64,000 nucleotides of DNA, taken from the NCBI GenBank assembly GCA_009192285.1, contig WBVU01000012.1:248001-312000 (forward strand), given 5' to 3'. Of this stretch, positions 40,216 through 64,000 are shown piece by piece. The position numbers were made by a program, and so were the translations under genes. Each line of letters begins with the position of its first letter. Positions within the stretch are counted from its first letter, which is position 1. The stretch is from Morchella semilibera (lineage: Eukaryota; Ascomycota; Pezizomycetes; Pezizales; Morchellaceae). The notes beneath the pieces were generated by a model, which was given only the letters and a program-made list of their open reading frames with translations, had not been told where the DNA came from and did no database searches.

Positions 40216-40270
40216 TTTAGGTTGATTTTTTAATTATTTGTTTTATTATTTGTTTTATTATTATTATTAT

Positions 40271-40303
<33 letters not shown>

Positions 40304-40480
40304 TATTATTATTTATTTTTATTATTTATTTTTATTATTTATTTTTATTATTTATTTTTATTGTTTATTTTTATTATTTATTATTATTATTTATTTTTAT
40401 TATTTATTTTTATTATTTATTTTTATTATTTATTTTTATTATTTATTTTTATTATTTATTTTGTTATTTTGATTGTTACT
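40216..40480. repeat. TTATT/TTATTTTTA microsatellite, about 265 bp
   Basis: Almost pure T/A in units TTA, TTTA and ATTTATTTTT. The apparent Tyr/Phe/Ile reading frame through it is a compositional artefact. Confidence 0.9.
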
Positions 40481-46658: not shown

Positions 46659-48903
46659 TTAACCGGTAGCAACAGGATTTGGCACCCGTCCGGGCTTGAA
46701 ATTTAATTGATTCTTTTTTAAGAGATGACAACCACAGATCTACCCAACAAACTTGCATCACTAAAGGTACGTAATGATGAAATAATTATTATGGAATAGA
46801 TTTTTGTAGCTTTTGACCCTTAGTGGCTTCTGGAGCTGCGCCCATATGGCTATAAAGCATAAGCACTCCCTACATACAAAATATATTCCCATCATCTATT
46901 ACTTCACCCACATCATACAATGTCTAGCAGAGTACTTAGAGCTCGAAACTCGGCACTTTCTTATGCTCCAATACCTTCTAAAAGTCCAGAACCTCTACCT
47001 CCAGCCAGAAGGGGTAAATCTAAGCCCCTAAAGACTCCAAAGCCGTCGGTCATGAAAAATCACTCGGCCTCGGCGCCGCTACAATCTACACTACCTACTG
47101 CCCCAGTATACAATCCCCTTCGACATACAAAACCTATAAAGGATGCTGAAAATACATTGCCTCGTTCTATAGCTCAGGCTGAATTTATAGAACCATCTAC
47201 AATCGTCAATTTGTTTTTTACTCCATCTTTAATGGACGATATGGCAAGAAATACCAATCTTTATGCAGAAGGTAAAAATGCAGGTGTTGACGGCCGGGAT
47301 TGGAGCCCTATAGAGGCAGCGGAATTGAGGTGTTGGATCGGAATTCTGATTTATATGGGTGTTGCTCGCATGCCTGCCATAGAGGATTACTGGAAACATG
47401 ATGGTCTTTATCCAACTCACCATTTTACCACCTACATGAGCCTAACCAGGTTTCAACAAATACGCCGCTATTTTCATGTAGCTCATCCAAACGAACCAAA
47501 AGAAACTGCAGATGGCCGCCGTCTCTGGCATTCAAAAGTAGATCCAATTCTCAATCAGCTCCGTGAATCGTCACAAGCATATCGATCACCATCCTCTCGT
47601 GTCGCAATTGATGAAGCTATGATACGCTGTACAGGACGGTCTAAAGATACCTATAAGATGCCTAATAAGCCAATCGATCAAGGTTTCAAGTTCCACTGCC
47701 TCGCTTATGCTGGTTACATCCATGACTTCATACCTACGTCAAATTTTAGCGGGGCCGATCCGATTACACCTTCTGGTTTTGTCGAAGTTGACGATATAAT
47801 GAGCACTACGAGCCGTCTCGTATTCAGCCTCATACAACGTAACTGCATTCGAGACAATCAAGCTTTTGATCTATTTCTTGATAACTACTACGTCAACCTA
47901 CCTTTATTTGCAGCATTACGTCGTCGACTGGGAGTAGGAGCTTGTGGAACGGCAAGGTCAAACTCTAAAGAATTTCCTACAGAGCTAGCTATTCCTAAAA
48001 CAGCAAAATTGGACTATCATTTCCGAACAGCTGTAGTAAAGGATGGCGTAGCTGTAATACTTTGGATGGATAACGGTCCTGTTTGTATTATGACTACAAT
48101 ACATCATGTTAAAGGAAGGCGTTCTGAGGTGGATGCATTGCGCAAAAAGCCAGGTCCAAAAAGCACTAATGCTGGTGGAATCAAAAGAACAGGGGAGTCA
48201 GTCTGGAAGTTAGGCGAGTGGTCTGCTATCACGAAGATTCCTACAGCTATAATGGATTACAACTATAATATGAATGGGGTTGATAGAGCTGATCAGTTGC
48301 GGTCCTATTATGAAGTTCATATAAAATCCTGGAAAACCTGGTATCCTATTTTTTTTTGGGCGGTAGATACAATTCTGGGAAACTCCTTCCTCATCTACAA
48401 AGACCACCCGAAGTCACAAAAAGATCTAGAACATAAAGAGTTCAGGATAAGAGTTGCGTGGGAGTTTATATTGGGGTGGAGAGTTAAGGGAACAGCGCCG
48501 AGCCAAAAGCGGAAACCTCTCTCAGAACTTGGTCTTCTCAACCCTAAAAGACAACAACGAGGATATATCACAAAGAATAGTATAGAAGCACCATATAAAG
48601 CAGAAGGCGAACATGTTCCTCTACACCTTGAAAAAAGACTGGAGTGTGTTCATTGTAGGTGGGAGAAAGTTAGAAGTGGAAAGTCTGTACCGGTCCAAAT
48701 ACCTAGAACCCACTGGAAATGTGGAACCTGTAATCACCCACTTTGTCTCTCAATTGAGCGAAATTGTTTTTTAAGTTTTCACTATAAGAAATAAATATAT
48801 ACTGTACTTTACAGGCCCTGCTTTGGTCATTTCATTGGGTATTCGTTGCGTTGGCATGTCAGAATTTGGAACCCGAATAGGCATGGAATCGCCTACAGGT
48901 TAA
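46659..48903 (+). mobile_element. piggyBac-type DNA transposon with TTAA ends
   Basis: The element is bounded by TTAA at 46659-46662 and 48900-48903, the target site used by piggyBac transposases. The ends facing inward are similar when one is reversed: TTAACCGGTAGC on the left and TTAACCTGTAGGC on the right, followed about 20 bp in by CGGG.TT..AAATT on both sides. The transposase gene lies inside in full. The boundaries are inferred by eye; other TTAA sites exist nearby. Confidence 0.6.
46920..48794 (+). CDS. PiggyBac-family transposase (DDE_Tnp_1_7), 624 aa
   Basis: A cut-and-paste transposase that targets TTAA. One uninterrupted frame from ATG 46920 to TAA 48792-48794. A basic N-terminal region is followed by the RNase H-like core, with the three catalytic aspartates visible at about residues 231 (RVAIDEAMIR), 321 (FDLFLDNYYVN) and 455 (YNMNGVDRADQLRSYY). 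The insertion region includes the family motif MDNGPVCIMTT. A C-terminal Cys-rich domain (CVHCRWEK, HWKCGTCNHPLCL) is present, as in active piggyBac elements. Length matches the family (about 600). No stop, frameshift or intron is seen, so the protein could be active. AT-rich codon use differs from the neighbouring conserved genes, in line with a mobile origin. Confidence 0.95.
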   Translation: MSSRVLRARNSALSYAPIPSKSPEPLPPARRGKSKPLKTPKPSVMKNHSASAPLQSTLPTAPVYNPLRHTKPIKDAENTLPRSIAQAEFIEPSTIVNLFFTPSLMDDMARNTNLYAEGKNAGVDGRDWSPIEAAELRCWIGILIYMGVARMPAIEDYWKHDGLYPTHHFTTYMSLTRFQQIRRYFHVAHPNEPKETADGRRLWHSKVDPILNQLRESSQAYRSPSSRVAIDEAMIRCTGRSKDTYKMPNKPIDQGFKFHCLAYAGYIHDFIPTSNFSGADPITPSGFVEVDDIMSTTSRLVFSLIQRNCIRDNQAFDLFLDNYYVNLPLFAALRRRLGVGACGTARSNSKEFPTELAIPKTAKLDYHFRTAVVKDGVAVILWMDNGPVCIMTTIHHVKGRRSEVDALRKKPGPKSTNAGGIKRTGESVWKLGEWSAITKIPTAIMDYNYNMNGVDRADQLRSYYEVHIKSWKTWYPIFFWAVDTILGNSFLIYKDHPKSQKDLEHKEFRIRVAWEFILGWRVKGTAPSQKRKPLSELGLLNPKRQQRGYITKNSIEAPYKAEGEHVPLHLEKRLECVHCRWEKVRSGKSVPVQIPRTHWKCGTCNHPLCLSIERNCFLSFHYKK

Positions 48904-52497: not shown

Positions 52498-54072
52498 ACC
52501 CTGCCAGAGGCGGGGCTAAGGCCAGGTGCCTTGCAACCACTAAAATCCGAGGAACCAGCACCTGTGGTAAGGTTTCAAAATGATATAAATCTAGATACTA
52601 CTTCTACTATGTACTAGATTATGACATTTTCGCACTCCTTGGCATAGCAACCTTATTGGTTGAGAGTGACGGAGGTATTGACTAAGCACGACACATCAAG
52701 ACCTGTGAACTGAATTGTATCACAAGGCAATGAAAGGTTAAACTGGCGGGAATTGGGGGGGCCGAAGGCCATAATTACATGTACGTACCGTAGAGAGAGG
52801 ATTAGTTTACCGCTGTTCCCCAAAATCTACACAACTCGCGAGGTGGAACCCCTAGTACATAGGTACGTGCAATTGCCTATTGAGCGGAGTGGTTCTTGAA
52901 AACCCGTGAAGAATTAAGCACTCGAATTAGAAATTCCCGTACAAACATTTGACTCAGGATTCCCTTAAGATGGCTCCCACATAAGAGGAATAAATGTTTA
53001 TAATGGACCTAGAACCTAGATCTGGCCAGTGTGGCAAAGGCTCACGAACAACCATTCATACTACTGGTCCCCCGAAGCCCAGAAATCTGAACCGACCCCG
53101 ACCCCCCCCCCCTCTGTCCAAATTCAGATCCTATGTAGAATCTGAATTTCCACAGGAAGTCATCCAATGATTTAAACTCCATCTTCCTCCTATTGTTTGA
53201 CCGAGCCTTGCCTGAAGCATTAATCCTTGCCGAAACCTATAGCTAGCGTACTACATCAATCACACTAAGCCGAATTAGGTCTGGTTTGAGACAAGATCGA
53301 CCACACAACACTACATGTAGTAACAAGATCGATCTCGACACCCGGCAATGAAAGGAATGACTGGACAGCGAAAACAGTGAAATGTAAGGTCTTTTTATTT
53401 TCTTATCTTTATTTCTCATGTGTCTCCCCGACCTTTTTGGTTGCAGCCACAACCGGGAAGGAACGGAAGGGGGTGTTGAAGCTTTTATCCCTTAGAACGC
53501 CAGGCCGAACCGAAACCGGAGGGACCCAAAGTGATATAGTAAACTCAAGACTGATATGGATGTTTGTCTTGCAACGTGCAATTCGTCACTTATAGACTCC
53601 ATGATAATTTCTTTCGTTGCTACTCTTATAGGCGTGCTTAATATCACGATTCCTATTTTGCGTTAGGTCATGATCACTCTGATTTCGATTCGGCCTGTAG
53701 ACGTGGTGCTGTTACCCGGTATTGTAGATGCCCCCCCCCTATAATTCCGTGTTACAGAACAAACGCAGCGGGGGGGGGGGGGGGAGAATTAGCGGCGCCC
53801 ATACAAATCTACATTTTCCGAAACTTCTAACCGGACCACTTTTATGGGCCAACTTCAACCACTAATAACTTTCCCCAACCACACCCCAAACTATTTTCCT
53901 CTCTATTAAGTGATAGCCCTGCTTCTTCTCTATAATCTCATAGAGCCAGATTAATTTTATCCTCCGTTGTGGTAGAACCACTGATTTTCTAAAAGTTGGG
54001 TTTTTGGTGGGGAGCCAAACGAATGTCACCAGGTAATTGCCTATTTAGGACAGAAATATTACTTTATTGGGA
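52498..54072. other. Gene-free stretch
   Basis: No supportable gene. TACATGTA occurs near 52779 and 53314, and runs of C and G lie near 53105 and 53770. Confidence 0.45.
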
Positions 54073-54308
54073 TATAGACGAGCTCCTGGGGGTATGGTTA
54101 AACGGGGGGTATGACTAATACCACCCAATTTCAGTAATGAATTAAACGAAATTCTTAAGAACAGATGGTACTTTTTGTAAGAATATGGAGAGCGTTTCTT
54201 AATTGTCAGCACCCATCCAGAGCATTGTTTTGTTGAACTTGGTCCTCAAATTTATGAGGAGTTAGTCGTACCCCCAGGATAACCATACCCCCAGGAGTGC
54301 GTCTACAT
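54073..54308. mobile_element. MITE, family 4, ~46 bp inverted ends
   Basis: The left end TATAGACGAGCTCCTGGGGG, continuing TATGGTTA..GGGGGTATGACTAA, is matched in reverse by GTTAGTCGTACCCCCAGGAT..CCATACCCCCAGGAGTGCGTCTACATA. The interior of ~140 bp has no coding capacity. Confidence 0.75.
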
Positions 54309-57817: not shown

Positions 57818-58005
57818 TGCTTATGTCCTGGGCGTATGAGACATTCGCGTTGCCTTTGTAGGAAGTGATTGACGAGAATACAAGTAATTTCCAGACTGAT
57901 AATGCCGCAAGCAGACATGTCACATATGTTACAGCAAAAATTGGATATCACATGACTTTCATGCATGAGAGAGATTTCGTGAATGTCTCATACGCCCAGG
58001 ACATA
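57818..58005. mobile_element. MITE-like element, ~28 bp inverted ends
   Basis: GCTTATGTCCTGGGCGTATG then AGACATTCGCG on the left is matched in reverse by CGTGAATGTCTCATACGCCC then AGGACATAGC on the right. The interior is ~125 bp and non-coding. Confidence 0.7.
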
Positions 58006-58217: not shown

Positions 58218-59257
58218 ACATGTGCACATGCCCCGACTTCAAGAAACCCTAGCCCTGTGTCAAACTTATCCTATTTGACACCAGAGGCTTTCAGTTAACC
58301 CCTACTTTCCATTTTCAAAAAAAAAGGAAACCCCTGAGAAATACCCAAGGACACATGACAATGGTTATGACGGATGAACGGTCTTTCAGTAGAGGCTTTT
58401 CCGTAGTTAACCTGAATTTCCAGTTCCAAAGTGAGAGAGAAACTCATGCGTCTGCTTCTGCCCTAGCTGACATGTCACTTTTTGATAAATACTTAATGCT
58501 TAATATTCTATTTGGCAAAACGTTGGTAGGAAGGAGCATAGGTACATGTATGTAGAACCATCTGTTGTCTCGAACCAGTCCCAATTGGGTTTGGTGTCAT
58601 TGCTAAATAGAAATTGAGAAATAACGCCAAGTTTAATAATTGATTAATTCGATTAAGACCACCCAACCCAATGTCTGGTTTGAGACAAAGCCATCTGTTG
58701 ATACGTTTACATGGGGCATTGCAGTGTTTTGGTGTGGTGAAGGGCATAAGATACACATTGCATTTTACCAGGCTATTAGAGCGGAAAAACCACAAATAGG
58801 TTCAATATCAAAACGGGGGGTCCCCACAGTGTTCCAATCAACACGCTAGCAATGCGGTATTCTTCCTGCAATGCTAGTTTAGAGTGGGTGCTCTAGGGGC
58901 TCATAGAACTAGAACATGCAAAGAACAAGTTACTTGCATGGCAGGGGAATTCCTGTTATCATGACCGTAATTCTACCGCTACCCTATATATATAGCAGGC
59001 CTTTGTATAATATGTAGTGCACTACATGTAGATCCTGAGCATGTCTCGGCCTACTAGGCGGCGCTGCATATAACTGCACCCCATTTAATTTGGGTCGTAC
59101 ATGAGCCGCCTCCGCAAAAATGCTCGTGGTTCTGGCCGGGTTGGGAGTGAAACATCCTTTCTATATGTAATCTCAACTAGGGTTGACGCGCAGGTGCTGG
59201 GAGCCGATGCTGACATGTCCAGGAGCGAACTGTTAATTTAATTACATGACCAAACTA
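58218..59257. other. Gene-free stretch
   Basis: No supportable gene. TACATGTA octamers lie at about 58543 and 59019, the last ones before the TET/JBP block. Confidence 0.45.
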
Positions 59258-59911
59258 TTATAGATCCAACTTAAGTAGCTCTTCACTAAGCTCCAATACA
59301 AGCATATCTATTCTAGAAATCTGATTTTTACAACTGGTAATTTGTTTTTTGTATTCCTCCCGCATAGTTTCCTGTTCATACTTAGCTATTTCAATCTGAT
59401 CGATGAAACTCATTTTCCTCTCCAGATGGCATTTCATTTCCTTTAGAAGTTTTTTTCTCTTTCCCTCGGTCCCTCCTTCTTTATTTACTTCCTCTTTCTT
59501 GATTTCTTTATCTTGTAGGAATCGTTTGATGTTCTGTTGAGGTGGAGAATGACTATCGCTGCTAGTATCCTCTTCATCGGAGAGGAGACTAATGACTGAT
59601 CGCTTAAGGGCTCGGGGGTTTAAAGAGCATTTGCGACCATTACGTAAACAGTTGTTACAGGAGGAGATGACTCGGTTGGTAGGATCAAGTTTCTGCACAC
59701 AGAACTCGCGACCACGATCTTGTAGAGCAGAAATACATGTTGTACACATAGGAGTATTGATTTGTATAGAGTTATGGAGGCTGGGTAAACGAAAGGCACG
59801 ATCAAGCCAATCAGCTCGATGTTTATTGATAAATTTGTCCCAAACTGGCACTCCATTACGGACAGGCCAGGAGGGGGTAGAGGAGGTAAAGGAGGTAGAG
59901 GAGGTAGACAT
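59258..59911 (-). CDS. Cys-rich coiled-coil protein, 217 aa
   Basis: No named family recognised. I start it at the Met in MSTSSTSFTSS (ATG 59911, context CAACAATG), because the open frame upstream to 60058 is encoded by a copy of the neighbouring repeat unit and the TATA box lies between. Residues about 50-105 hold a six-Cys cluster (CTTC, EFC, CNNCLRNGRKC) with the same C-x2-C..C..C-x2-C-x6-C order as at 40863-41675, suggesting zinc binding. The acidic/Ser region SDEEDTSSDSHS follows, then a Lys/Glu-rich coiled coil (about residues 130-217) ending in LVLELSEELLKLDL. It diverges from the TET/JBP-like gene across the repeat array. Confidence 0.7.
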   Translation of the reverse strand: MSTSSTSFTSSTPSWPVRNGVPVWDKFINKHRADWLDRAFRLPSLHNSIQINTPMCTTCISALQDRGREFCVQKLDPTNRVISSCNNCLRNGRKCSLNPRALKRSVISLLSDEEDTSSDSHSPPQQNIKRFLQDKEIKKEEVNKEGGTEGKRKKLLKEMKCHLERKMSFIDQIEIAKYEQETMREEYKKQITSCKNQISRIDMLVLELSEELLKLDL

Positions 59912-59954
59912 TGTTGTTGCTGTCAAAAGGAGGAAATATGAAGGCATAAGCCAT

Positions 59955-59962
59955 ATTATATA
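59955..59962 (-). promoter_or_regulatory. TATA box of the Cys-rich coiled-coil gene, inside a repeat copy
   Basis: TATATAAT on the minus strand lies ~45 bp upstream of ATG 59911, at the 3' edge of the inverted repeat copy. The other repeat copies carry CACTATAAT or CACTATATT at the same place. Confidence 0.6.
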
Positions 59963-61245
59963 GCGCCGGGTTTTTACTCTTTCCTGTACAGCGCCATGTA
60001 CAGGCGTCACACTCAATCGTTGATACATGGAAATGAAAGCACTACTTTTTAGCTTCATTCTGAGCCATAAATCGCCAGGTTAGCGCAAAAACTGACGGAG
60101 ATATGAAGCCTTGACTAATGCAGAGTCCATTGCATTAGTCAAGGGTTCATATCTCCGTCAGTTTTTGCGCTAACCTGGCGATTTATGGCTCAGAATGAAG
60201 CTAAAAAGTAGTGCTTTCATTTCCATGTGTCAACGATTGGGTGTGGTGCCTGTACATGGCGCTATCAAGGAAAGAGTAAAAAACCCGCCACTATAATCAA
60301 GGGTTCATAACCCAGTCAGTTTTTGTGCTAACCTGGCGATTCCTGGCTCAAAATGAAGCTAAAAAGCAGTACTTTTATTTCCAGGTGTCAACGATTGGGT
60401 GTGGTGCCTGTACATGGCGCTATCAAGGAAAGAGTAAAAAACCCGCCACTATAATCAAGGGTTCAGTTTTTGTGCTAACCTGATCATTTATGGCTCAAAA
60501 TGAAGCTAAAAAGCAGTACTTTTATTTCCAGGTGTCAACGACTAGGTGTGACGCCTGTACATGGCGCTATTCAAGAAAAAATAAAACCCGCTACTATATT
60601 TGAGGCTGCATAGCTCAGTCAGTTTTTGTGCTAACCTGGTAATTTTTGGCTCAAAATGAAGCTAAAAAGCAGTACCTTTATTTCCATATGTCAACGATTG
60701 GGTGTGATGCCTGTGCATGACGCTAGTAAGGAATTGGTAAGAAACCCGGCACTATAGGAATCTATTAGTCAAAGCTTCATAACTCAGTCAGTTTTTGTGC
60801 TAACATGGGGATTTTTGATGCAGAATAAAGCTAAGAAGTACTGCTTCACCCCCATACCATAACGGTTGCGTGGGACGCTTGTGAATGTAACCATTCAGGA
60901 AATAGTAAAATCCCGCCACTATAGTAAAAGCCTCATAGCTCAGTCAGTTTTTGTGCTAATCTGGCAATTTTAAGCTCAAAATGAAACCAAAAGATAATAC
61001 TTCACCCCACACTACAACGATTATGTGTGACGCCTGTACATGACGCTATTCAGGAAATGGTAAAAATCCAGTACTATAAAACTCCATGCCGCTGAGCCTT
61101 ACTATTTCCTGATTAGCACAATGCATAAGTATCAATTCATATTGTTGAAATTGGTAAATAGAAGTACGCATTTGTAGCTTTGTCCTGAACTACTAATCGT
61201 TACGTTAGCATAAAAACTGACTAAGATATAAGCCACTACGAATAG
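59963..61245. repeat. Array of ~160 bp repeats: one inverted, six direct, one inverted
   Basis: Direct copies start at about 60140, 60298, 60456, 60599, 60769 and 60926. They share CAGTTTTTGTGCTAACCTGG, GGCTCAAAATGAAGCTAAAA, CAACGATTGGGTGTG and CCTGTACATGGCGCTAT, and most end in CCCGCCACTATA. An inverted copy at 59963-60120 is nearly identical to the first direct copy, so 59963-60297 forms a long palindrome. A more diverged inverted copy lies at 61088-61245. Direct copies diverge more toward the right. No coding pattern is seen. Confidence 0.9.
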
Positions 61246-61346
61246 GCATCTGATATTATAATAGGACTTAACAAATCAATCATATCAATTTTCTATATAT
61301 AGCAGTAACATTCCCCAATATTCATACCATATCTTAAATATTCTGT

Positions 61347-62725
61347 ATGGATTATCGCAAATCTCGCAACACACTCGGTCGCCTCGATGATGCTGGTAAG
61401 CGTGTCGCTGAACGCGGAGAGAACTCTATCGCTCTCGATCGCCTCGATGATGCTAGTAAGCGTGTCGCTGAACGCGGAGAGGATCATATCGCATCGAATC
61501 GTCACTTTGCAATACGTCGAAATCAAAACAAACAAATACTGGATCGCAATACCCAACGTCAAAATCGTAAACTCGCAAAACGCAACAAACGCAAATCTAA
61601 TCGCAAGCTAGAGATCGATATCGAACGGAACTCAGCTCTGGATTTCATTGATAAGAAACCAGAAGGTAATTAGATTCTATATTGATATTATCAACTCTAC
61701 TAATACCCCTCTTCTTAGATGTTGAATCGGAATCGGTATTTCTCATGCATCGTAAACGGGACGAAAAGATCGCTATGGAAATGTTTGGGAAGGAATGGAC
61801 ATATAATGATACTATCTGGAATGATCGCAAATTTAAACGAATTATCGGAGACCAATCGAAGACGGTATACATTATCGATTCGGCTTCCAGAGAAGTTCGA
61901 ATAATCTACAAAATTACTCTCTTTAAAGATCTCGCACCGGAACGCTTATCGGAACTACAATTTAACTTCAATTATGTTCAAAAAGATCAAAAATTTCACT
62001 CAGAAATTAAATGCAATCATGCCCAGACTGGTGGTGTCATGAAATCTATAGGATATCGCGCCGGAACGGAATCGGGTTGGGATTTCGGTACATACACAAT
62101 GAATAAAAACATATGTCCAGATACACTATCTGAACATTTCTCGCAAGCGCTACGATTTCATCGCAATCTCGGTAGAAGCTTTCTCGATATGGCACCGGCA
62201 TTCTTTCGGCAAAGGCAACAGCAAGTCCGGGAACTAAAGCTACCACTCCTCGGCATCGATTACGGAACGGAGTCGGCTATATTCTTAAAGAATGAGACTC
62301 TTTTCACACCACAAGTTGCTTATACCTATGGTGGATTTCGGAATAAATCGCACCGAGACAACGATGTCTCTAAATATACATCTGGAATATGGGCACCTAT
62401 TCGGACATCGGACGGTTCGATCGTTCGCTTCTCTGATGGCTACAATTCCTATGGACACTTCTTCTACTGTACTATCTATAAAACGCTAATTGATTTCGCA
62501 ACGATCGATGGAATTACGGAGATCGTTTGGTGTGGTCCGGAGGATGATCACGGTACCGCAACGGGCGGTTTCGGATCGGGATTTACAAGATATGCAACTA
62601 CATGTCAAGTGAATAAACAGCTAAATATAAGAGTACAAAATGCTATTCAAATAGGGGTAGCAAATGTTAAAGATAATGTAGTTAGATTGAAGGAGTTGTT
62701 AGAAAGGATTACCGGAACTTCGTAA
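61347..62725 (+). CDS. TET/JBP-like 2-oxoglutarate/Fe(II) dioxygenase, 441 aa
   Basis: TET/JBP enzymes hydroxylate methylated bases in DNA (5-methylcytosine or thymine) using Fe(II) and 2-oxoglutarate. Two exons (61347-61665, 61719-62725) join in frame, with a consensus-like CTACTAATAC branch site in the 53 bp intron. The N-terminal ~105 residues are very basic and include a tandem 20-residue repeat (RLDDASKRVAERGE). The C-terminal half has HRDND (His318, Asp320) followed by VSKYTSGIW, then GHFFYCTIYKTLIDF, DGITEIVWCGPEDDHGTA (distal His384) and Arg397 as the likely 2-oxoglutarate ligand. This order matches fungal TET-like domains as I recall them. The metal triad looks complete. AT-rich but TCG/CGA-dense coding sequence differs from the conserved genes in this window. 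Confidence 0.82.
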
Positions 62726-63082
62726 CGGAAATATCGATCTGCTTTGTAGTTCAGCATGTATTTTAAATGGAAAGATTGTATAAGATAGGATTTAAATTAA
62801 ATTATCGCATCGATCGGATTCCCGATCTAGGCTAGATTCGAAGATTCATAATCGCAAATCTATTGAGTAGACATATATATATATTGATTAATCCAAGAAA
62901 AAAAATAATATAATTTAAATACAACCTATAGCAAAAATATTTCTTTTTCAAAAACAAATATAGGAATGAAAAGTTACCGTCACAATTCTTCTGATCGCTC
63001 TAAAAGTAATAGAGATATTAGCTTCTGATATTCATGATCGTAATATTGATATGATCAATACAGATATTTCAATACGTACATT
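62726..63082. other. Convergent AT-rich spacer
   Basis: The TET/JBP-like gene and the next gene converge here. The spacer is AT-rich with an ATATATATAT run near 62872. No gene is seen. Confidence 0.5.
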
Positions 63083-63938
63083 TTAAGGTGTACCTTGACC
63101 CGATGGATATGGGGGTGGGGTAATACTGGGTTCATTAGGCTGTATCTCATCCCGATCATCTGGCCTTACTCTTTTCCTTCGGAGATTTAGCTCTCTTTCT
63201 AAATCATCGTCATCATCTTGATGTCCTTCAATTTTTGTTGAGATATCATTTGTTGAATTTTCTTCGATCTGCGAGTCTCATCTATATTAAGATTCATAGT
63301 ATAAAAAAATAATTATAAGATTTTACCATTTGTCGTAATTCATCTTTGATAAGTCTCAATAGATGCTCCTGAACTGATGGCCTTCGATCCACCTAAGTAT
63401 TTTTTAGTCGTGTATACGTAGCTAAGAAATATTTCTATTTTAGTACTTGAAAAAGCTAAATTCGATACCAGGCTTACCTAAAACATCTTTGTTTTTGTAC
63501 CCAAAATGCCCCAATTGTTTTGCTTTCGTTGGATTTCCTAATGATATTCGACGTAAATTATACCATATGGCAGTCGAAACTAAACAAATAAATTTATGAT
63601 TTATTTGTTCAAGAAATATATCATCTTTTCGAACTCGTCCGGTGGTATCATGGTAATATATATGGTATATTAATTCAATCAATTCGGGAGCTAAAAAATA
63701 GAATTTAATATCCTATATGAGATAATTATTAGTTTTTTTGCTAATTTTTATAAAGAGATCTGATTACCTCGTAATGCTTTGGTTGACATAGGAATCTATC
63801 TTTATACAAAAGATATACTGCACGTTCAGTTTTTTTCTCTGTGGTTGATAGTTCACTGAATCCGTATAGTGATCTTTCCAGTTTTGACTTCATTCGATTG
63901 AGTAATCTAGATTTCGCATAAACATGAAAGTCTTTCAT
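63083..63938 (-). CDS. Hypothetical protein, probably partial, DUF6532-like
   Basis: Likely exons on the minus strand are 63938-63768 (MKDFHVYAKSRLLNR), 63712 to about 63478 (DIKFYFLAPELIELIYHIYY through FICLVSTAIWYNLRR), 63392-63327 (VDRRPSVQEHLLRLIKDELR) and 63268-63083 (ending in an acidic then Pro-rich tail, PPPYPSGQGTP). Introns 63767-63713 and 63326-63269 have normal ends. The junction between exons two and three is out of phase by one base with the obvious GTAAGC donor, so either the donor differs or the frame is broken. The central pattern (FICLVSTAIWYNLRRISLGN followed by GHFGYKNKD) is reminiscent of the fungal DUF6532 domain, which is a guess. The ATG is preceded by TACAAG, so exons may continue past the window end. 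Confidence 0.5.
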
Positions 63939-64000
63939 CTTGTAAAATTAATAACCATTTATTCAAGTAATGGAATTTATAACCTACAATCTTGAGGTAG

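Follow-up and report, generated by a model that had tools for sequence, protein, structure and literature searches.

The 64,000-nucleotide stretch of fungal DNA analysed here (the window, positions 1 to 64000) holds near its right-hand edge three genes grouped around a repeat array: a gene for a Tet-like oxygenase dependent on 2-oxoglutarate (2OG) and Fe(II), a Cys-rich partner gene that diverges from it across the array, and a third gene that converges on it from the far side. We can say with near certainty that the whole group, genes and array alike, is carried as cargo at the 3' end of a Helitron, only part of which lies in the window. The features, with window coordinates, strand and the basis of each call, are:

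59177..64000, minus strand: in-window part of the Helitron, which ends 3' at 59177 in CTAG, as read on the Rep/helicase strand (homology extents between copies and their common edges)
59258..59914, minus strand: Cys-rich partner, 217 amino acids from an ATG at 59911 (open reading frame, divergent from the oxygenase)
59915..61250, no strand: repeat array between the divergent genes (Tandem Repeats Finder and core counts)
61347..61665, plus strand: oxygenase exon 1, with two units of a 20-amino-acid peptide repeat (open frame joined by the splice)
61666..61718, plus strand: oxygenase intron of 53 nucleotides, GT..AG (sole open splice solution in the scanned range)
61719..62725, plus strand: oxygenase exon 2, with the Tet-like 2OG-Fe(II) oxygenase domain (PF20515, kept residues, Ka/Ks)
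63340..64000, minus strand: in-window part of gene 3, DUF6532-like (whole gene 64740-63340, hand-spliced, exon limits approximate)

The first-pass annotation had taken the central gene for a TET/JBP-like enzyme with an HRDND..H..R layout, to be checked by a Pfam profile comparison, and that assignment holds up. Splicing exons 1 and 2 (61347-62725) gives a protein of exactly 441 amino acids, the splice scan having covered donors from 61655 to 61699 and acceptors up to 61744. This protein passes the Pfam cut-off for PF20515 (2OG-FeII_Oxy_6, Tet-like) with E 4e-36 and 125.4 bits (cut-off 27), the match spanning residues 180-387 and profile positions 2-209 of 211. PF20515 is the sole Pfam family listed at E<=10, PF12851 (Tet_JBP) not being among the families listed, in a search whose HMMER filters discard most matches above ~0.1. 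NCBIfam gave nothing for the oxygenase or the Cys-rich partner, and a scan of viral contigs for relatives yielded three pattern matches, none of them confirmed. The motifs themselves stand in the expected order, HRDND starting at 318, DDHGT at 382 and FTRYA at 395, and supply the HxD, the second His and the Arg (the labels H318, D320, H382 and R395 follow the motif starts; by strict count the second His is residue 384 and the Arg residue 397). By motif, these residues can be assigned the roles of facial triad and 2OG-binding Arg, and the family to which the protein belongs suggests DNA as its substrate. The number of N-terminal 20-amino-acid repeats varies from two in the window copy to about three in copies C4 and C21b, at least five in C2a and at least nine in C2b, as read by eye from frames that are broken in C2a, C2b and C6.

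The neighbours likewise agree in outline with the earlier description of a Cys-cluster gene, an ordered array and a converging third gene. The partner is a minus-strand open reading frame, and we place its start at the ATG of 59911, since a longer 266-amino-acid reading begins within the repeat array. By eye it has a CxxC..C..CxxC..C cluster of six spaced Cys and a Lys/Glu-rich C-terminus, and the coiled coil of the earlier description likewise comes from reading by eye; a comparison with Pfam found nothing significant, Zn_clus (PF00172), the profile of Zn(2)-Cys(6) factors, lying below its cut-off of 21 bits at E 3 and 8.5 bits. The array is periodic according to Tandem Repeats Finder (periods of 156, 158 and 303, scores 351-888) and consists of seven units defined by the core TCAGTTTTTG, six in direct orientation 147-169 bp apart and one inverted. 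When one unit was searched against the genome, all 51 matches listed fell at seven places of this Helitron, in a search that scored 10 first-look candidates and whose list may be partial. Gene 3 does converge on the oxygenase, crossing the window edge as it does so, and its hand-spliced protein matches PF20149 (DUF6532) at E 1.3e-8.

The evidence for the Helitron comes from its copies and from the DNA just outside the window. The homology that the copies share sets in sharply near 59177 and continues past 64000, and on a running count the element extends from 59177 to window position 73926 (contig C11:321926), a length of ~14,750 bp (~14.75 kb). A Pfam search of the flanking 10 kb beyond the window found two domains on the minus strand, PIF1 helicase at E 1e-30 and Helitron_like_N (Rep, HUH, Y2 type) at E 2.1e-12, each above its cut-off, and HTH and KYITKY motifs can be seen by eye. 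Helicase and Rep lie 3.4-7.7 kb beyond the window edge, within the element ends. The first-pass annotation is right that no transposase is visible in this block, but only for the reason that the window breaks off 3.4 kb before the Helitron helicase. To judge from its Rep and PIF1 genes and its copies, the element is a Helitron of the autonomous type that has multiplied in its host genome.

The copies share both ends, and their flanks outside these ends are otherwise unlike. Counting the window's own copy, the left edge falls at the identical base in 9 of the 10 aligned rows that reach it, and these nine end in CTAG with AA immediately outside; the tenth (L038) lacks the last bases, two of the nine (L033 and L035) represent one site in contigs that are 99.9% identical, and the count leaves out six further stretches (L054-L059) in which the end was missed and no usable match obtained. 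The right end, GTATGTTTAA, occurs in 10 of 11 rows, again with the own copy included and with one of the ten being a tandem copy of the end; L060 is without it. Relative to canonical Helitron1, the 3' CTRR is present as CTAG, and the 5' TC is replaced by TTAAAC.., with an uncertainty of ~2 nucleotides. A short hairpin of the kind that canonical elements have 10-12 nucleotides before their 3' terminus was sought without success: the terminal 39 and 74 nucleotides fold like shuffled sequence (z 0.87 and 0.97). Canonical elements insert between A and T; here, as read on the Rep strand, TT follows the 3' end in 9/9 rows with an intact end, and the 5' flanking base is A in 6/10. At C7:101172-101285 there is a second tandem copy of the 5' end, which resembles the multiple 5' termini of some FoHelis announced in a section heading of PMC5148889.

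We then looked at whether the three genes keep company elsewhere in the genome that holds the window, an assembly of 56.76 Mb in 23 contigs whose labels (C1, C2 and so on) are local to this study; repeat counts from this search are lower bounds. Oxygenase sequence was found at 12 places (17 matches): on C11, which is the window, on C4, C22, C6, C7, C1 and C19, twice on C21 and three times on C2. The PF20515 profile also gave 12 matches in the genome, all of them within these places. A match to the divergent partner lies beside the oxygenase at every one of the 12, the weakest cases being C2:1431563, with a 60-amino-acid piece at 52% identity, and C7, where it is 9 kb distant. Gene-3 DNA accompanies the oxygenase at 10 places (C19 and C2:1431563 being the other two), and a helicase match, oriented as expected, at 9. 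Independent places may number 11, the copies at C21:538005 and on C22 lying in contig regions that are 99.9% identical. The earlier idea that the three genes form one module is therefore right insofar as they travel together in this genome, but the unit is the cargo of a Helitron rather than something that stands alone. As to the assembly itself, contigs C21 and C22 agree at 99.9% over 18 kb, and C12 and C13 at 100% over 3.9 kb, in each case at nearly equal coordinates, as in a duplicated or two-haplotype assembly.

Compared with the window copy over 2.5 kb, C6 shows 99.8% identity, C2b 99.2% and C2a 99.0%, and from such near-identity we conclude that the family moved recently. Exon 2 of the oxygenase is under purifying selection: the ratio of nonsynonymous to synonymous change (Ka/Ks) is 0.23 between C11 and C4, the two copies whose exon 2 is full-length and free of stops, and lies at 0.14-0.40 in 25 of the 27 computable pairs (of 28), with extremes of 0.10 (C2b-C6) and 0.57 (C7-C19). 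These values come from 8 of 11 rows, some with stops or frameshifts (C2a, C2c and C21a were excluded). The catalytic residues are kept in 8/8 copies that cover them, decayed copies included, and three other rows do not extend over them.

Fungal Helitrons with such an enzyme are not without precedent. TET-encoding Helitrons were published in 2025 (Kojima, PMC12730594), with Helitron1 in Pezizales and Puccinia graminis and Helitron2 in Agaricus bisporus; what we say of this paper, of PMC5735166 and of PMC5148889 refers to the portions of their texts available to us. The present element is accordingly a variant and not a new kind, and it resembles those Helitrons in being a fungal Helitron that encodes a TET/JBP-like dioxygenase, Pezizales included. 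The PE type (Pezizomycete enzymes) of that study, however, is marked by HxE, whereas the present enzyme has HxD, with HRD in 8/8 copies covering the site. Nor does the available text mention a Cys-rich partner, a DUF6532 gene, an array or a peptide repeat, all of which are found here. CcTET and the AG-type TETs of Kyakuja/Zisupton (PMC12730594) share with our protein the HxD...H...R layout of a Tet-like oxygenase on a transposon, but they belong to another transposon class, and the equivalents of their G331 and D337 (Gly/Ser and Asp) are V and G here by an ungapped comparison made with no structural alignment. FoHeli of Fusarium (PMC5148889) is similar as an ascomycete Helitron with non-canonical ends, but ends in ATTTT or CTCCTGT and not, as here, in CTAG with a Tet-like gene on board. 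A looser analogy can be drawn with the VANDAL elements of Arabidopsis (PMC5735166), whose VANC protein has variable tandem peptide motifs and whose non-coding tandem DNA repeats vary among copies; for VANC, however, motif binding and loss of methylation were shown by experiment, whereas the oxygenase described here is known from sequence. Judged at that level, the element appears to differ from published ones in the HxD, the lack of AG-type residues (ungapped), the variable 20-amino-acid repeat, an array listed only here and an excess of TCG. This suggests that the typing of fungal transposon TETs as PU, AG and PE may not cover all ascomycete lineages. The host, by its sequence, looks like a Pezizomycotina ascomycete rather than a basidiomycete. 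An exon for ribosomal protein uL3 has its best matches in the PDB chains 7r81, 8oo0 and 7olc (Neurospora/Chaetomium), and one for acetyl-CoA synthetase reaches 687 bits with 7kdn and 647 with 7kq6 (Aspergillus/Coccidioides), as compared with 549 for 7kds (Candida), 544 for 1ry2 (Saccharomyces) and 542 for 5ifi (Cryptococcus). Genome size and the TET+ Helitrons known from Pezizales lead us to guess at a relative of morels or truffles.

Taken together, the data are likely to be best explained by a Helitron whose cargo includes a Tet-like enzyme with a role against silencing. That role, considered by itself, is suggested by the family of the enzyme and by the host, and we regard it as a reasonable bet. 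The Rep/PIF1 proteins, to go by their domains, would move the element by rolling-circle replication. The oxygenase would oxidise 5-methylcytosine on the element's own DNA, the oxidised base would then be diluted or repaired to cytosine, and its loss would counteract silencing by the DNA methyltransferases (DNMTs) of the host. Candidates for the latter exist: PF00145 (DNMT-like) occurs at four places in the genome, of which two lie on a pair of contigs with no difference over 3.9 kb, and one of the proteins matches PDB 9baq, a DNA (cytosine-5-)-methyltransferase, at E 4.7e-59. For the DNMT-like gene at C19:4046k the PDB matches are general DNMTs, and by eye it looks RID/Masc1-like. For the partner and the array we tentatively suggest a part in directing the enzyme to its target or in controlling the two divergent promoters.

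A more specific form of this proposal, which we think unlikely, is that the Helitron demethylates itself in a self-aimed way: the array would be a docking platform read by the partner and/or the 20-amino-acid repeats, in the manner of VANC, the TCG excess would be a self-tag or methylation sensor, and the HxD enzyme would fall outside the PE and AG types. If true, a Tet-like enzyme would be acting on its own family while sparing the host, which touches the general question of how transposons resist DNA methylation without wrecking the host. The present genome has recent copies that are nearly identical, enzyme copies both stop-free and broken, seemingly gene-less places and several DNMT-like genes, and with these in one genome a single methylome would tell protection of the element's own family from action in trans on all transposons.

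Several observations count against an anti-silencing Helitron as we have drawn it. At three of the 12 oxygenase places (C4, C21:2451507 and C19) no helicase match is listed in the expected position. Searches of PDB sequences with the oxygenase listed no TET enzyme or oxygenase relative, and AlphaFold2 on exon 2 (six rows) produced no usable fold, with a mean predicted local distance difference test (pLDDT) score of 30.6 and a predicted template modelling (pTM) score of 0.23. The decay of the copies gives no evident sign of heavy CpG methylation in the past. In six middle-aged and older rows (C4, C21b, C7, C1, C19 and C21a) C-to-T changes are ~1.2-fold to 5-fold higher than A/T transitions, and their preference for CpG is ~1.5-fold (88/1053 CpG vs 161/2876 other C), a hand sum over six of eleven rows, copies that are not independent, with the four youngest and C2c excluded; in C2c the preference is reversed, with C-to-T at 5/76 CpG vs 26/153 other C. 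Such a weak CpG bias of decay speaks against the strong form of the anti-silencing idea. The CpG observed/expected ratio of the whole element is 1.00, as compared with 0.74-0.78 in two host stretches and 0.65-1.06 in six host open reading frames; we count the contrast with the two stretches in favour of the anti-silencing reading, although so normal a CpG content may simply mean recent arrival or base composition. Within the element the oxygenase exons stand out at 1.59 and the non-coding DNA that follows them (to 63320) at 1.25, the other parts listed lying at 0.65-1.04. Repeat-induced point mutation was considered as the main force of decay and rejected, the CpG preference of C-to-T being just ~1.5-fold and C2c showing the opposite.

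Among the alternatives to the anti-silencing reading, one holds that the enzyme generates, or supplies the precursor of, a persistent modified base (5-hydroxymethylcytosine, a CMD1-like adduct or oxidised N6-methyladenine, 6mA) that marks or protects the element, instead of stripping off methyl groups. PMC12730594 leaves room for PU- and PE-type enzymes with activities beyond canonical TET chemistry, and the CcTET residues tied to activity on 5-methylcytosine and 6mA are absent from our protein, where an ungapped count from the first His finds V at +5 and G at +11 in place of G/S and D; yet no glycosyltransferase or other second-step enzyme turned up among the element's open reading frames searched against Pfam, a set that did not include every small frame, and we judge this explanation doubtful. 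That the oxygenase is a captured passenger gene of no function to the element strikes us as improbable: gene capture is known in Helitrons (PMC5148889), and the two places with gene-3 DNA and no oxygenase match of their own listed (C2:3576549, ~6 kb from the C2b copy, and C19:4174744) hint that related copies lacking the oxygenase may exist, but Ka/Ks is below 1 in 27/27 computable pairs and the catalytic residues have been held in every copy that can be scored. Shared descent from a few active copies could lower Ka/Ks in part, yet those copies would then themselves have been under selection. Hardly credible at all is a stand-alone host module for DNA modification, which the arrangement of three genes, divergent and convergent, around an ordered array might bring to mind; the several copies have common termini with Rep and helicase inside them, and repeats of the array are listed solely at element places. 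Because of the common termini, we consider that explanation refuted in this genome.

The composition of the oxygenase gene is itself unusual. Its sense strand holds 57 TCG triplets, or 43.1 per kb (exon 2 alone, 35.9 per kb), as against 6.9-18.6 per kb in 19 other open frames; permutation gives z of 4.6 for the gene and 3.5 for exon 2, and at most 1.4 for the other 19. Of the sense-strand TCG triplets, 37 have C or G as the next base, vs a single such case in the reverse complement. Codon usage alone does not account for this, the expected number being 20.8+-3.7 with the usage of Rep/helicase and 41.1+-3.2 with the gene's own codons permuted. The copy that has diverged furthest (71% identical) keeps TCG at 12 of 20 sites, other NCN triplets at 28%, and ACG, CCG and GCG at 4 of 15. 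We also considered that TCG might be actively kept, an idea that finds no support in C7 and C1, where TCG decays like other C triplets (0.67 vs 0.66 and 0.68). To us the excess looks like a feature either of the functional lineage or of how the gene arose. In Pucciniomycotina, TCG sites are hypermutated in repeats (PMC12730594); we found no link between this and the present excess.

Other repeats and mobile sequences lie to the left of the Helitron. About 10 kb away, at window 46863-48791, is an open frame of 643 amino acids that matches PF13843 (DDE_Tnp_1_7) at E 2e-56 and which we take to be a piggyBac-type transposase. Short inverted repeats at 57822-57849 and 57978-58005 (28 bp, 96%) and at 54072-54118 and 54262-54308 (47 bp, 85%) may be miniature elements, and an AT-rich tandem array of 18 copies of a 13-bp unit occupies window 40228-40462.

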